A stretch of DNA of 64,000 bases from Methanothrix harundinacea 6Ac (GCF_000235565.1 NC_017527.1:2294001-2358000); one strand, 5' to 3'; shown: positions 17,285-22,685, numbered from the stretch's first letter. Program-made: numbers and translations. The notes: a model not told the origin generated them from the sequence alone.

Positions 17285-17293
17285 GCTGGCCGT
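17285..17293. repeat. Left 9-bp target-site duplication of the transposon
   Basis: GCTGGCCGT, immediately followed by the left terminus GGCTTTGCACGTAAA. The same nine bases directly follow the right terminus at 22677-22685. Confidence 0.9.
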
Positions 17294-17308
17294 GGCTTTG
17301 CACGTAAA
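17294..17308 (+). repeat. Left terminal inverted repeat
   Basis: GGCTTTGCACGTAAA, the exact reverse complement of the right terminus at 22662-22676. Confidence 0.92.
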
Positions 17309-17316
17309 CCCCTTTC

Positions 17317-17350
17317 TGCACGTAAAGTCTGATGTCTGCACGTAAAGTCT
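17317..17350 (+). repeat. Left subterminal direct repeats
   Basis: TGCACGTAAAGTCT occurs at 17317-17330 and again at 17337-17350, a 20-base period. The core TGCACGTAAA is also part of the left terminus at 17299. These are likely transposase-binding sites. Confidence 0.8.
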
Positions 17351-17436
17351 TTGGAGTACCTATCTTAAGTTACTAGCATTGCAGTAACCAAAACGTTTTC
17401 CTAGATGCCGGGCATCGATGTGTTGAGGGCAAAATT

Positions 17437-17889
17437 ATGAATATCGTATCGAGCACGAATGCCAATTGCTGGCTTGCGCCGGTAAAGGGTGATAAAAATA
17501 AGTCTGCCGAGAAAGTAATCCAAACCTTGGTAGGCAATGAAGGGATCTTTGGATTCGGTGAGAGAACACCTGCGAGGAAGCGTCTAAGACCTGGAGATTT
17601 GATATGTTTTTACGCAAAAGGCAGCGGTATAGTTGCACATGCAGAAGTTGCGTCTAGCCCAAGAGAAATGCATCGTCATAGAATCAACATGTTGAGTAAG
17701 TACCCCCGCGCGTTTAGCGTCAAGAATGTCGAATTGTATTTAAATAATCCGAATGCAATAGATTCTGTTTGTAGAGGCAGACTGGAAGCTTTCAGAGATC
17801 GAGATCCAAATGCTCCATGGGGTTGGTTCGTGTTGACAACCCGGCGAATAAGCAACCACGATTTTAAGATATTAACTTCGGCCCGATAA
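17437..17889 (+). CDS. EVE-domain protein (transposon cargo)
   Basis: This 150-residue protein consists of one EVE (PUA-like) domain. The signature is the L-R-P-G-D-L-I-C-F-Y-A-K-G-S-G-I-V-A-H-A-E-V stretch at about residues 50-71, preceded by a conserved N-C-W near the N terminus and followed by a W-G-W-F-V strand. EVE domains bind modified bases in DNA or RNA and are common beside restriction genes and in defence islands. No nuclease or helicase is fused here. It is the leftmost gene of the transposon, on the opposite strand from the restriction genes and convergent with them. Codon use is AT-rich, unlike the host. Its role is inferred. Confidence 0.8.
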   Translation: MNIVSSTNANCWLAPVKGDKNKSAEKVIQTLVGNEGIFGFGERTPARKRLRPGDLICFYAKGSGIVAHAEVASSPREMHRHRINMLSKYPRAFSVKNVELYLNNPNAIDSVCRGRLEAFRDRDPNAPWGWFVLTTRRISNHDFKILTSAR

Positions 17890-17945
17890 TTATTTTTATT
17901 TTGGAGATCGAAAGCCAAAGACAGAACAAAATACGGTGGTATATA

Positions 17946-19292
17946 TTATATTAATTCATTTTCGATAATTTTTCTGGACGAATCTACAAATTGATTTCTT
18001 TTATTTTTTGCATTAAAAGCTTCTTTGCATAAGCATGTTACCTCATCTATAATATCCTTTTCTACATAAGGTATATCAATATAATTTAATCCATCTTCTA
18101 TTGTGGGTATTGTAGATTGGACGAATATTCTTCTGTAGATTTGGTACAAACCAAACTTTGTATTTAAAAAAATAAAAATGAATTCCGGTGTGAAATAATC
18201 ATCTACTATTCGAATTCGTTTAATGTGACTCTGAATTACACAATCATCCCCTTCTAAACACATTGCAGATAATCCAATTTTTCCATCGTTGGTAAAAAGA
18301 ATATCATTCGGTCGCAAATCTTGTTTATATTCATCATATATCTTTTTATTTATTTTATGGTGTGAATCGCGATCTATACCGTGGTTCACTAGATCTGAAG
18401 TCCGAATAAATGGTATGCCATGGTCGCTGTAATTTTTTGAGCCCACCTCTTTTCCTTTTATAATTTTCGCTATTTTCCACAAATTTGTGGTTTCAAATCT
18501 TTCTTTTAGAAGCCGATTTGTTTCCCGATACGGTGGGTAATAAAAGGTAGGTGAAAATTTCGATTCTAACTCTGTCACAGGGATCTGGAAAGTTGAACAA
18601 TTTTGATAATTCATATCTATATTAAAATATTGTTCTAATTCGCACTGGGCTTTGGTTAGATTGGTAAAAAAATCCACTTCGAATTTAGCCGCCTTTTCCA
18701 TCAAATCCGATACTTTATTTACGCATTCTTTGTTAAATACTACCAACAATTCCCTGAGGGGGGCAAGTGTTAAATGCGCATGAGTTTGCTGTGTTTTCAC
18801 TCTTTGCATTTGGATTTTCCCTAATTTACTGGATAGGTAGGCTGCCAAAAATCCAGAAAAATTTTTATCATTCACATACAGACCGACGATGTCCTGGCTT
18901 ATGTTGGATTTTCCTAGATATTCGGGCACCAAAGCAATGTTCCCAACTGTACCACTTTTACTTATTACTATATCCCCCGGCGACACTTCTGTTTTAATAT
19001 TACTATCATGCAAATCAGCACTCAGATATGTTATATCATTAATATCTATCGTTAAATACTTGATACAGGATACTCTAATAAATGGAACCCCCGCATCTTT
19101 ATATTCCGATGCGGATATACTAAAGATTCCCTTTTTTAAATTGCCAAATGCGGCCAGTTTTCTTACTTCGTAGTCGTTACTATTTGATTTATCTTTAATA
19201 ATTCTAAGCAAGCCTAGCGCCGATGGATCGTAATATCTAACATCAAATCTATTTTCTAATTCAGACGAGTATAATTCTGCTGTATAGTGCAT
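17946..19292 (-). CDS. hsdS: Restriction-modification specificity subunit (HsdS-like)
   Basis: This 448-residue protein has the two-fold plan of S subunits: a first target recognition domain at about residues 40-200, a helical spacer at about 200-240, a second recognition domain at about 265-420 and a C-terminal helix. Each half carries family phrases such as G-V-P-F-I-R-V-S / G-I-P-F-I-R-T-S, S-P-G-D-I-V-I-S-K-S-G-T-V-G / R-P-N-D-I-L-F-T-N-D-G-K-I-G, and a late I-P-x-V-E segment. It should read a bipartite DNA site for the upstream nuclease-methyltransferase. Its ATG overlaps that gene's TAA as TAATG. The gene is strongly AT-rich. Confidence 0.92.
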   Translation of the reverse strand: MHYTAELYSSELENRFDVRYYDPSALGLLRIIKDKSNSNDYEVRKLAAFGNLKKGIFSISASEYKDAGVPFIRVSCIKYLTIDINDITYLSADLHDSNIKTEVSPGDIVISKSGTVGNIALVPEYLGKSNISQDIVGLYVNDKNFSGFLAAYLSSKLGKIQMQRVKTQQTHAHLTLAPLRELLVVFNKECVNKVSDLMEKAAKFEVDFFTNLTKAQCELEQYFNIDMNYQNCSTFQIPVTELESKFSPTFYYPPYRETNRLLKERFETTNLWKIAKIIKGKEVGSKNYSDHGIPFIRTSDLVNHGIDRDSHHKINKKIYDEYKQDLRPNDILFTNDGKIGLSAMCLEGDDCVIQSHIKRIRIVDDYFTPEFIFIFLNTKFGLYQIYRRIFVQSTIPTIEDGLNYIDIPYVEKDIIDEVTCLCKEAFNAKNKRNQFVDSSRKIIENELI

Positions 19293-21133
19293 TAATAATT
19301 TCTCCTCTTGAAACTTTGATATTCTTCCGCGATTAGCGGTAAATCATCATCCGGTATTAGTTCTCCGTGTTCATCTTTCTTAAATATCGGCTTGGCCCGT
19401 CTATCGTGTCCACACTTCTCGGCAAAAGCCATGAAAATTTTATAATCCGTTTCCATTACTTGATCCTTTTTCTGTAGAAAAACTACACTTGTTTTTGTGC
19501 TAGTACTCGGTTGGAATGTCTCATTTGGTAAATCAACCACGGCGAGCAAGTTTGCTCTAGATAAAATAAACTCTCGTATGTATCCGTCTGATTGATTGCC
19601 AACTATACTATCTGGTAAAACTATGCCAATTCTTCCGCCCGGTTTTAGCAGTTCCAAGCACCGTTCTATAAAGAGAATTTGGGGTGGGCGCCTATCTGCA
19701 AATTTTTGCGTCCTTTCCCATTTTTGCTCGTTTTTATTAAATCTCCATTTGTAACTAAGAGAATATTGAGAAAGCACTTCCTTCGATGTTATTGATATTT
19801 TCGACCCGAACGGCGGGTTTGTCAGTAATACATCGAATGATCCAAAATTTATCCTATCCTGAGTCTTATTTTGCCAATCTAAGGGACTAAATAGGCTATT
19901 TTCACAAAAGACGCCCCCACGCCCATCTCCAATAATTGCCATATACGCCTTAGTGACCTTCGCAAGAAAAGAATCTTTATCAATTCCAAAGAAATACTTA
20001 TTTGAAATATCCTTTTTCTTCTGAACAATCAACTCCTGCGACCAATTTTTTCGTTTCCCCTCTTCTTCAATTTTGTCCCATACATATTCTAATGCAACTA
20101 TTAAAAATCCTCCACTCCCACAAGCGGGATCAATTACATATTCTCCAGGATCGGGATCTAATATTCGCACGACCATTTTTACAACATTCCTGGGTGTAAA
20201 AAATTGCCCTTCTCCCCCTCGTAGTGCTGGCCCAATAAAAACTTCAAATGCGTCACCTAAAGCATCCCGTTCCGCCGAAATTATACAGTACTTCTGAAGT
20301 TCCCCAACCACATAGATTAAAGAGTCATCATCAAGTTTTATGCTATCCTCTTCATCAAAAACATCGTCATAATCCTGCTTTACTTTTGTAAACAAGTTTT
20401 CAATTCTCGTTCTGACATCGATTTTATCTTCATCAATTCCAGCGCGAAATTTAACATTTTCATCAGGTGCGGTATTGATTTCATCATACAATTTACAAAA
20501 CAATATATTAATTATCTGCTGTGCTATTGCCTCATCTCTTGTGATTCCTGTAGCCGAACCAGCTAAATGGTTTCGAATATCGTTGAACACAACCTTTAAA
20601 TTATTAGGAGTTTGTAAATCTTTTCGTTTATATAACCCAATATCCGCGACCCGTTCTCCATGTTTTGGTATGTCTGGTATTTCTTTCCAAGTTATGCGGC
20701 CATCATCGAATGCCTTTCTTAGATACAAATGATCTTTACCATTAAACCAGACGCCTATTTCGACGCTGGGTATGAGGTTGAGATAAATACTTAGTTGCTT
20801 GAGACCATCGCTCCGATTCGGTTGCTTACATTCCACGACAATACGCATATTATTATATTCCTTCTTATCATTATAAAATACAGCGATATCTACAGGGTAT
20901 TTTTCTTCTCCAGACGGAGCAGTCTTTGTACGAAATTGGGGATGAGTTTGTATCTGGTGTTTACGATACCCATAGTCTTCGACAAGTTTTTTGGCAAAAA
21001 CTTGAACTGCCTCGGCTTCCTCTGGGGTAGCTAAAACTTCAATACCGGATATATAATCAATTAAAGTTCTTTTTCCCTCGTTAGTAGAATTGCCGACTTC
21101 GCTATTACTTTCCCATTTAGATCTCGTCATCAT
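19292..21133 (-). CDS. Fused PD-(D/E)xK nuclease and N6-adenine methyltransferase (BcgI-like RM subunit)
   Basis: This 613-residue protein combines two activities. The N-terminal part (about 30-130) has an HSDR_N-type nuclease motif: Asp82 in P-V-D-I-A-V, Glu101-x-Lys103 in V-V-E-C-K-Q, and Q113-x-x-x-Y117. A linker leads to a HsdM-type methyltransferase with F-F-T-P-R, the SAM motif D-P-A-C-G-S-G-G at 335-342 and the catalytic N-P-P-F at 439-442. There is no helicase/translocase domain and no separate hsdR gene. With the adjacent S subunit this is the layout of type IIB enzymes such as BcgI, which cut outside their site without translocation. It lies downstream of the DUF2080 gene (6-base gap) and is coupled to hsdS. 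Confidence 0.88.
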   Translation of the reverse strand: MMTRSKWESNSEVGNSTNEGKRTLIDYISGIEVLATPEEAEAVQVFAKKLVEDYGYRKHQIQTHPQFRTKTAPSGEEKYPVDIAVFYNDKKEYNNMRIVVECKQPNRSDGLKQLSIYLNLIPSVEIGVWFNGKDHLYLRKAFDDGRITWKEIPDIPKHGERVADIGLYKRKDLQTPNNLKVVFNDIRNHLAGSATGITRDEAIAQQIINILFCKLYDEINTAPDENVKFRAGIDEDKIDVRTRIENLFTKVKQDYDDVFDEEDSIKLDDDSLIYVVGELQKYCIISAERDALGDAFEVFIGPALRGGEGQFFTPRNVVKMVVRILDPDPGEYVIDPACGSGGFLIVALEYVWDKIEEEGKRKNWSQELIVQKKKDISNKYFFGIDKDSFLAKVTKAYMAIIGDGRGGVFCENSLFSPLDWQNKTQDRINFGSFDVLLTNPPFGSKISITSKEVLSQYSLSYKWRFNKNEQKWERTQKFADRRPPQILFIERCLELLKPGGRIGIVLPDSIVGNQSDGYIREFILSRANLLAVVDLPNETFQPSTSTKTSVVFLQKKDQVMETDYKIFMAFAEKCGHDRRAKPIFKKDEHGELIPDDDLPLIAEEYQSFKRRNY

Positions 21134-21139
21134 ATCAAC

Positions 21140-21295
21140 TCATCTTTCGGAGCTTGCTGGTTCCATCAATATGATCTTAACCCGCTTGTCTACCCATTCT
21201 CTTGGTACATATACCCTTCCAGAGTTACCTCCGGCTTTTACAACTTTTTCTATGACTTGGTAGGCATCTAGAGTAATCTTCATCGGATCAGTCAT
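21140..21295 (-). CDS. DUF2080-like transposase-associated small protein
   Basis: A 51-residue frame with good coding sense: M-T-D-P-M-K-I-T-L-D, then E-K-V-V-K-A-G-G-N-S-G-R-V-Y-V-P-R-E-W-V and K-R-V-K-I-I-L-M-E-P. This K-x-x-G-N-S-G-R-(V/I)-Y-(V/L)-P pattern is that of DUF2080 proteins, AbrB-like swapped-hairpin DNA binders commonly encoded by archaeal insertion sequences. It ends six bases before the nuclease-methyltransferase ATG, on the same strand, so it can be the first gene of the RM operon. It may regulate the restriction genes or the transposase. Its function is unproven. Confidence 0.75.
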   Translation of the reverse strand: MTDPMKITLDAYQVIEKVVKAGGNSGRVYVPREWVDKRVKIILMEPASSER

Positions 21296-21315
21296 ATGAT
21301 GGCTGTAAAATGGAG

Positions 21316-21330
21316 TTATAATATATATAC
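21316..21330. promoter_or_regulatory. AT-rich divergent promoter between the RM operon and the transposase
   Basis: TTATAATATATATAC is a near-symmetric TATA region 20 bases from the DUF2080 ATG on one side and about 85 bases from the transposase ATG on the other. It could serve either direction. Confidence 0.45.
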
Positions 21331-21344
21331 TTTGTGGTTGTTAA

Positions 21345-21410
21345 TAGATACATAATAGTTTATATTAATCTATCAGTTATCTTTAAATGCTTGTAGTTAC
21401 TATGTATCTA
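21345..21410. repeat. Inverted repeat upstream of the transposase gene
   Basis: TAGATACATA (21345-21354) and its exact complement TATGTATCTA (21401-21410) are 46 bases apart; the second ends 2 bases before the transposase ATG. They could form an operator pair or an RNA hairpin that masks the start. Confidence 0.5.
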
Positions 21411-21412
21411 CT

Positions 21413-22642
21413 ATGGAACGTGGTGTAAAGAACATTCGAGAAGAACGCGGCAAAGCAATCGCAGATCAGGGCAACCAGATCAAGAAGGTTAGTGAAACCT
21501 CATTCAAGGTGAGATCGCAATCAGGAAACAAAACCTACGAGGTAAAGAGTACTCCTAATGGCATGACCTGTACCTGTCCTGATTTCGTTTACCGAGGAGG
21601 TAAGTGCAAGCACATAATGGCAACCCGCTATTACCTCGAAGTTGAGAAGGATACTCCAAAAGGCGTAGTTACTGAGAAGGTCCACCTAACCTATGCTCAG
21701 GCATGGAACGCATACAATAAAGCGCAGAAGGCAGAGGTCAAACTCTTCGATGAGTTACTAAAGGACTTAGTGAAAGCCATACCCGAACCAGAGCAAACCA
21801 CAGGGAGACCTCGCCTACCCCTTCAAGAGAACCTGTTTTGCGCTATCCAAAAAGTCTACTCGCAACTCTCCAGCCGTCGCGCACACAGTTTGTTCCAGAA
21901 CGCGACAGACAAAGGACAGATCAGCAAAGCACCCCACTTCAATTCAACATCAGAACTCTTTAACAAGCCCGAGACAACAGCGATCCTTCATCAGCTTGTA
22001 ACCCTCTCCGCCTTGCCCGTTGCTGGAATAGAAACCGATTTTGCGATCGACTCAACGGGATTCCGTACAACTACGTTTAACGCCTATTGCGGCACAAAGC
22101 ATGGTGAGAAGAAACAACACCGATGGGTGAAAGCTCATCTATGTGCGGGTGTTAAAACCAACATCGTAGCAGCCATATCGATAACTGATGAGTACAGCAA
22201 TGACTCGCCTCAGTTTGGACCCCTGGTAAGGAAGACCGCTGAAGGATTCACCATAGATGAAGTCTCTGCTGATATGGCATACTCTTCAAGGAAGAACCTC
22301 GAACTTGTAGGTGATGTTGGAGGCACAGCCTACATCCCTTACAGGAAGAATGCAACGGGTAAGGCTGGCGGTTCTCCTCTCTGGAAGAAGATGTATCACT
22401 ACTTCCAACTCAATCGTGACGAGTTCATGGACCACTATCATAAGCGAAGTAACATCGAAGCTACCAACGCTGCGATCAAGCGTAAGTTCGGAGAGACCTT
22501 AAAGTCAAAGAACGAAGTTGCCCAAGTCAACGAACTGCTGGCAAAAATTGTAGCTTACAATCTCACGGTAGTCATCCATGAGATGTATGAGAATGGGATC
22601 AACCCTGAGTTCTTGCACGTAAAGTCCGAAGTCTGCACGTAA
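21413..22642 (+). CDS. DDE transposase with N-terminal SWIM zinc finger
   Basis: This 409-residue transposase has a SWIM finger at about residues 40-75 (C-T-C-P-D-F-V-Y-R-G-G-K-C-K-H) and a later RNase H-fold catalytic domain: Asp in F-A-I-D-S-T-G-F, Asp in V-S-A-D-M-A-Y-S and Glu in R-S-N-I-E-A-T-N-A-A-I-K-R-K-F-G. The R-x-x-x-E spacing is that of IS4/IS5-clan enzymes. The last codons (L-H-V-K-S-E-V-C-T) and the stop are encoded by the right subterminal repeats. The frame is complete, so the element may be active. GC content is intermediate between cargo and host. Confidence 0.92.
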   Translation: MERGVKNIREERGKAIADQGNQIKKVSETSFKVRSQSGNKTYEVKSTPNGMTCTCPDFVYRGGKCKHIMATRYYLEVEKDTPKGVVTEKVHLTYAQAWNAYNKAQKAEVKLFDELLKDLVKAIPEPEQTTGRPRLPLQENLFCAIQKVYSQLSSRRAHSLFQNATDKGQISKAPHFNSTSELFNKPETTAILHQLVTLSALPVAGIETDFAIDSTGFRTTTFNAYCGTKHGEKKQHRWVKAHLCAGVKTNIVAAISITDEYSNDSPQFGPLVRKTAEGFTIDEVSADMAYSSRKNLELVGDVGGTAYIPYRKNATGKAGGSPLWKKMYHYFQLNRDEFMDHYHKRSNIEATNAAIKRKFGETLKSKNEVAQVNELLAKIVAYNLTVVIHEMYENGINPEFLHVKSEVCT

Positions 22643-22647
22643 AGTCC
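22614..22647 (+). repeat. Right subterminal direct repeats
   Basis: TGCACGTAAAGTCC at 22614-22627 and 22634-22647, with the same 20-base period and the same orientation as the left-end pair, although the terminus beside them is inverted. They overlap the 3' end of the transposase gene. Confidence 0.8.
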
Positions 22648-22661
22648 TCTATTTTTACCCT

Positions 22662-22676
22662 TTTACGTGCAAAGCC
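22662..22676 (-). repeat. Right terminal inverted repeat
   Basis: TTTACGTGCAAAGCC, the perfect complement of the left terminus at 17294-17308. Confidence 0.92.
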
Positions 22677-22685
22677 GCTGGCCGT
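22677..22685. repeat. Right 9-bp target-site duplication of the transposon
   Basis: GCTGGCCGT directly after the right terminus, identical to 17285-17293. Confidence 0.9.

Follow-up and report, generated by a model that had tools for sequence, protein, structure and literature searches.

A single transposase gene lies beside a block of restriction-modification (RM) genes in the chromosome of Methanothrix harundinacea 6Ac. Are these genes the cargo of one transposon, or do they merely neighbour an insertion sequence (IS)? A preliminary description of this DNA took the former position and placed a complete 5.4-kb transposon at 17285-22685 of a 64,000-nt window, the whole stretch of DNA that was analysed. 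The 15-bp inverted ends it reported are indeed perfect, and the same sequence, GGCTTTGCACGTAAA, has no other exact copy in the window; the two ends are also its sole occurrences genome-wide when up to two mismatches are allowed. By chance, such a pair would be expected about 2e-6 times within the window. The reported 9-bp target duplication, GCTGGCCGT, likewise stands directly outside both ends. The element is complete as claimed, although the span first given for it includes both target copies; the element proper occupies 17294-22676 (5,383 bp; Table 1). The subterminal TGCACGTAAAGTC repeats near its two ends are absent from the preliminary description. It is single-copy in its 2.57 Mb, 2-contig genome and foreign in base composition, with a G+C content of 39.5% vs. 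61% for the window (33% in the S gene, 38% in M and 47% in the transposase gene). The insertion point lies upstream of the left-hand, minus-strand gene, about 45 bp from its probable start codon. No RNA families were found within the element.

Table 1. Features of the transposon and its target site, in window coordinates.
Feature	Position	Strand	Basis or remark
Left target duplication copy, 9 bp, GCTGGCCGT	17285-17293	.	single copy at orthologous empty site
Left terminal inverted repeat (TIR), 15 bp, GGCTTTGCACGTAAA	17294-17308	+	exact-match search
Two subterminal TGCACGTAAAGTC repeats, left	17317-17349 (starts 17317, 17337)	+	56-bp left end with TIR, common to relatives
EVE-like protein, putative modified-base reader, cargo	17437-17889	+	Pfam EVE, 18.2 bits vs. 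cut-off 23
Specificity (S) subunit, two target-recognition domains (TRDs), cargo	17946-19292	-	Pfam Methylase_S, two stretches
Fused PD-(D/E)xK nuclease and N6-adenine methyltransferase (M), 613 aa, cargo	19292-21133	-	Pfam HSDR_N_2 43-156, N6_Mtase 288-587
DUF2080 small protein, divergent from transposase	21140-21295	-	Pfam DUF2080, 33.5 bits, residues 10-46
Transposase, N-terminal SWIM zinc finger and DDE, IS5/IS903-like, 409 aa	21413-22642	+	Pfam, alignment, IS903 homology
Two subterminal TGCACGTAAAGTC repeats, right	22614-22646 (starts 22614, 22634)	+	overlap transposase C-terminal codons
Right TIR, 15 bp, GGCTTTGCACGTAAA	22662-22676	-	exact-match search
Right target duplication copy, 9 bp, GCTGGCCGT	22677-22685	.	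abuts right TIR outside

The site as it was before insertion was sought by joining the left and right flanks and comparing them with genomes of the same genus. In one of these, G200, the flank match crosses the junction ungapped (query positions 4-645, 88% identity) and contains one target copy, GCTGGTCAT, which is identical to GCTGGCCGT at 7 of 9 positions. In most other genomes of the genus, the left flank is conserved up to the same GATAAAGGCTTTGCTG stretch. Had an ordinary IS instead landed next to a resident defence island, its apparent left end 5.4 kb away would be a chance match or an unrelated repeat. Most IS do have one gene, but here the exact 9-bp duplication spans the whole 5.4 kb, relatives have the same left-end repeats, and an empty site that lacks the entire 5.4 kb refutes the idea, which we give virtually no weight. 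The defence genes thus lie inside the element, as had been proposed, and there is no second inverted end upstream of the transposase. Among close relatives, we saw no IS copy whose left end lies directly upstream of the transposase; the sole IS-only form seen (L091; 1,567 bp) is merely 29% identical.

The transposase is full-length, in keeping with the preliminary description, with a SWIM domain at residues 52-70 and a DDE_Tnp_1 domain at residues 209-384 (Pfam). In an alignment of 19 transposase sequences, the triad D213, D287 and E349, the Y342-R345-E349-K356 signature [Y(2)R(3)E(6)K] and the SWIM residues C53, C55, C65 and H67 are all invariant. As a yardstick we used the IS903 copy in phage HK022 (1,057 bp; ends GGCTTTGTTGAATAAATC; 9-bp duplication TCATTCCAA), with which the transposase shares 27% identity over residues 202-383, the DDE part (hhalign probability 98%). 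Both elements have GGCTTTG-type ends, a 9-bp target duplication and a DDE domain with Y(2)R(3)E(6)K, and the ends GGCTTTGTTTAATAAGT of two relatives (L039 and L045) are very close to those of IS903. In contrast, IS903 encodes a 307-aa transposase and has no cargo, and the SWIM domain, subterminal direct repeats and passenger genes belong to the window element. Because the transposase score of 131.6 bits against the NCBIfam IS5_2 model (NF033579) falls narrowly under the curated cut-off of 140, we term the element an IS5-family relative, not a formal member. Judged by sequence, the transposase family is IS903-like with an added N-terminal SWIM domain. MULE-type Mutator elements likewise combine SWIM with 9-bp duplications; this identity was set aside because the Pfam match is to DDE_Tnp_1 and the homology to IS903 is direct. 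A similar SWIM N-terminus (~41% identical) is present on a different-looking DDE transposase in another family of the class (L095:643-1785); the SWIM module may therefore have been swapped between transposases.

Very probably, then, a complete, single-copy SWIM transposon of the IS903 kind inserted in the Methanothrix chromosome and brought with it a type IIB-like RM pair and an EVE-like protein. Insertion into a promoter-proximal intergenic site would have produced the 9-bp target duplication, and the transposase would act on the 15-bp ends and nearby repeats, moving everything between them, so that the translationally coupled nuclease-methyltransferase and S genes would have arrived with the element together with the EVE-like gene.

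The M stop codon overlaps the S start codon (TAATG). M carries the PD-(D/E)xK residues D82 and E101-x-K103, as well as DPACGSGGF and NPPF motifs. The RM module of the preliminary description is present in the form of these two genes, with the qualification that the restriction enzyme has no gene of its own, forming instead one domain of the methyltransferase protein. The best PDB sequence match of M is the type IIB enzyme RM.BsaXI (1.5e-32), and BsaXI is also the best fold match (5.8e-28) of its AF2 model (pLDDT 77.5). The module thus resembles BsaXI by sequence and, as modelled, by fold: both combine a fused nuclease-methyltransferase with a separate S protein, which in the window element has two TRDs. 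M of BsaXI is longer, at 916 aa, and the EVE-like neighbour is unlike BsaXI. A type I RM system was rejected, there being no HsdR-type translocase gene among the element's ORFs. MADS was rejected as well, with MAD2 at 468 vs. 720 bits and MAD5 at 140 vs. 400 bits, both under the curated cut-offs; no other MAD genes were recognised within the element.

The RM module looks intact, and its activity is predicted from sequence: it would methylate self DNA and cut unmodified invader DNA. Alternatively, the N-terminal nuclease might be inactive, leaving the pair as a methyltransferase only, with an epigenetic or self-marking role. The moderate confidence of the nuclease domain in the AF2 model leaves some room for such a degenerate module, but M retains D82 and E101-x-K103, and cargo relatives almost all have the same lysine, which makes this quite improbable.

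Of 238 genomes in the class, only G200 yielded a homologue of the EVE-like protein (62-64% identical), encoded near a single-chain RM enzyme of 1,044 aa, and in the L031 element a clear EVE protein precedes the RM gene. Comparison of the EVE-like protein with solved structures gave nothing significant. EVE-containing proteins adjoining type I RM systems are known (PMC7641849). Two G200 contigs start with the same 61 bp of an S gene (L119:1-61 and L121:1-61; 98%) and then diverge, one continuing into an EVE gene without its N-terminus; this is either an S-gene rearrangement or an assembly break.

The preliminary description had counted four unrelated cargo genes. The block of EVE, S, nuclease-methyltransferase and DUF2080 genes is there, but the last is more likely part of the transposon kit, because relatives often place MazE/AbrB-like or ribbon-helix-helix proteins in the same slot. 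More generally, a small divergent gene of DNA-binding type is often found in the slot by the transposase, and the DUF2080 protein that occupies this slot in the window element probably regulates the transposon.

Close relatives match one another over the first 56 bp (TIR and two repeats) and the last ~1.2 kb (transposase and right end), and the sequence between these shared ends is unrelated. For example, two elements of G200 have transposase DNA that is 83% identical, with RM and S genes as cargo in one vs. an SDH-type protease in the other. Loci L013 and L014 match at 87% over 1.8 kb and have different RM genes upstream. In L007, the repeats read TGCAAAT at the left end and TGCACGT at the right end, as though its ends were derived from separate sublineages. 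Shell and cargo are thus separable, and we infer that cargo is exchanged when a transposase with its right end is combined with a different left end. The shell, made up of left end, transposase and right end around a cargo slot, can be recognised in sequence and offers a route to finding more such elements.

How often is this slot filled by RM genes? We examined 62 loci with transposase relatives for facing ends and an exact 9-bp duplication. Both were present at 19 loci, one of which (L064) is a remnant, compared with 0.0 expected from local shuffles. The end-search loci other than this remnant, the window element, L055 (which has other ends) and an element split over two G200 contigs (C23/C4), whose outer 9-mers agree (CTAGCATGG on both), gave 21 delimited elements, a count that depends on MAG contigs and on the starting patterns of the similarity search. 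They are 2.3-7.1 kb long, and all 21 carry cargo. Their hosts are Methanothrix, other Methanomicrobia, Thermoplasmata, Micrarchaeota, Woesearchaeota, Nanoarchaeota, Aenigmatarchaeota and two bacterial-labelled MAGs. An N6-methyltransferase RM gene is present in 11 of the 21, or 10/20 without the window (the window element, G200 C23/C4, L007, L018, L021, L024, L031, L033, L036, L039 and L046). L013, L014 and L040 also have RM genes beside the transposase, and are cut by contig ends or have no settled end. The preliminary description held that IS-like elements with one transposase rarely carry a complete RM module; rarity of RM does not apply to the present transposase family, because about half of its delimited elements do.

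Using M of the window as sole query, and leaving out the window and the split element, we found methyltransferase matches inside 9 of 19 elements vs. none in 162.8 kb of same-contig flanks (P = 7.7e-6, treating matches as independent). This bears on whether the cargo is arbitrary, that is, whether the IS family tolerates any passenger and RM genes are frequent since they are common and mobile in archaea. Such indifference would suit the 10 of 21 delimited elements without recognised RM, which carry an SDH-type protease, proteasome-like proteins, tRNAs and unknown proteins. However, it sits poorly with the enrichment over flanks (P ~8e-6) and with RM-bearing L033, which also holds a pair of ParE-like and Panacea genes, and we consider it unlikely. 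Since about half of the delimited archaeal relatives carry RM, defence genes appear to be moved repeatedly by this small transposon family.

A PADLOC scan of the non-RM cargo gave weak matches at most. In two loci of distant archaea (L029:4203-5519 and L030:6695-7522), the cargo protein has an N-terminus resembling a proteasome-type hydrolase, although Pfam gave no match to that fold, and is a candidate for an unknown cargo function. The pair in L033 (9208-10298), a ParE-like toxin and a SocA/Panacea-like protein, lies on the far side of the transposase; a similar-looking pair is found at L010:1849-2863.

RM genes might also stabilise the element, because their loss would be costly, in which case RM and toxin-antitoxin-like cargo would be expected to recur in the family. 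Taken further, RM could be mainly the transposon's addiction module, whose loss kills the cell, and not a host defence. RM does recur, L033 adds a toxin-antitoxin-like pair, and RM systems have been proposed as stabilisers of mobile units (PMC3031569). Sequence cannot separate addiction from defence, but an EVE-like reader beside RM in both the window and L031 would fit defence, and a mainly addictive role seems less likely than not. More broadly, there is about an even chance that a widespread, mainly archaeal IS903-like SWIM lineage recurrently carries exchangeable immunity and addiction modules between archaeal phyla, comprising motor-free RM, toxin-antitoxin-like pairs and some tRNA genes, with one relative adjoining viral tail genes.

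RM genes on mobile elements and IS with passenger genes are both known in kind. The latter, termed tIS, form a recognised class (PMC7986276), with one transposase, IS-type ends and unrelated passenger genes; the window element, in which a single pair of IS ends encloses non-transposition genes, belongs with them. In contrast to tIS in general, one passenger class, RM, recurs here in about half of the delimited members across archaeal phyla. RM systems are known on transposons and between IS copies (PMC3031569), and in composite transposons with IS-flanked RM the genes are likewise mobilised by transposition. The window element is not a composite transposon: there are no flanking IS copies, and the genome has one transposase and one end pair. 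Tn7-like elements also carry exchangeable defence cargo inside transposon ends (PMC8649781), but the window element is far smaller and archaeal, has a single IS903-type DDE transposase, and no Tns proteins were recognised. Thaumarchaeal IS-like transposons are described as having 1-2 genes (PMC6563490). In the literature searched, which did not include ISfinder or subscription journals, we found no description of an archaeal SWIM-IS903 lineage or its RM bias, nor of any compact IS903-like lineage in archaea whose cargo slot is recurrently filled by RM genes.

The window element is a base-exact example of a mobile unit for archaeal RM genes. Should a larger census bear out the RM bias, this would help account for the spread of motor-free RM among methanogens and DPANN archaea, and would make the proteasome-like proteins, the SDH-type protease and a pair of 447- and 342-aa proteins candidate new defence genes.

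This 447+342-aa cargo is found in L012 and again in an IMG/VR contig (L096:5147-9240), where a relative of the window element adjoins tail-fibre-like genes. The two 9-mers flanking this relative differ, which makes its right end provisional; the contig suggests that the family enters viruses or proviruses. Five tRNA genes lie inside delimited elements (Rfam 51-64 bits): Leu(TAG) and Ser(GCT) at L008:933-1140, Gly(ACC) at L023:7572-7644, and Ser(ACT) and Tyr(GTA) at L033:4687-4849. The flanks of the scanned loci gave one tRNA, and BLAST in two genomes found no similar second copy of the element-borne genes. Finally, one contig (L011, L073) holds two head-to-tail copies of a 2,462-bp element with one 9-bp target copy between them, reflecting either a tandem insertion or the assembly of a circular form.
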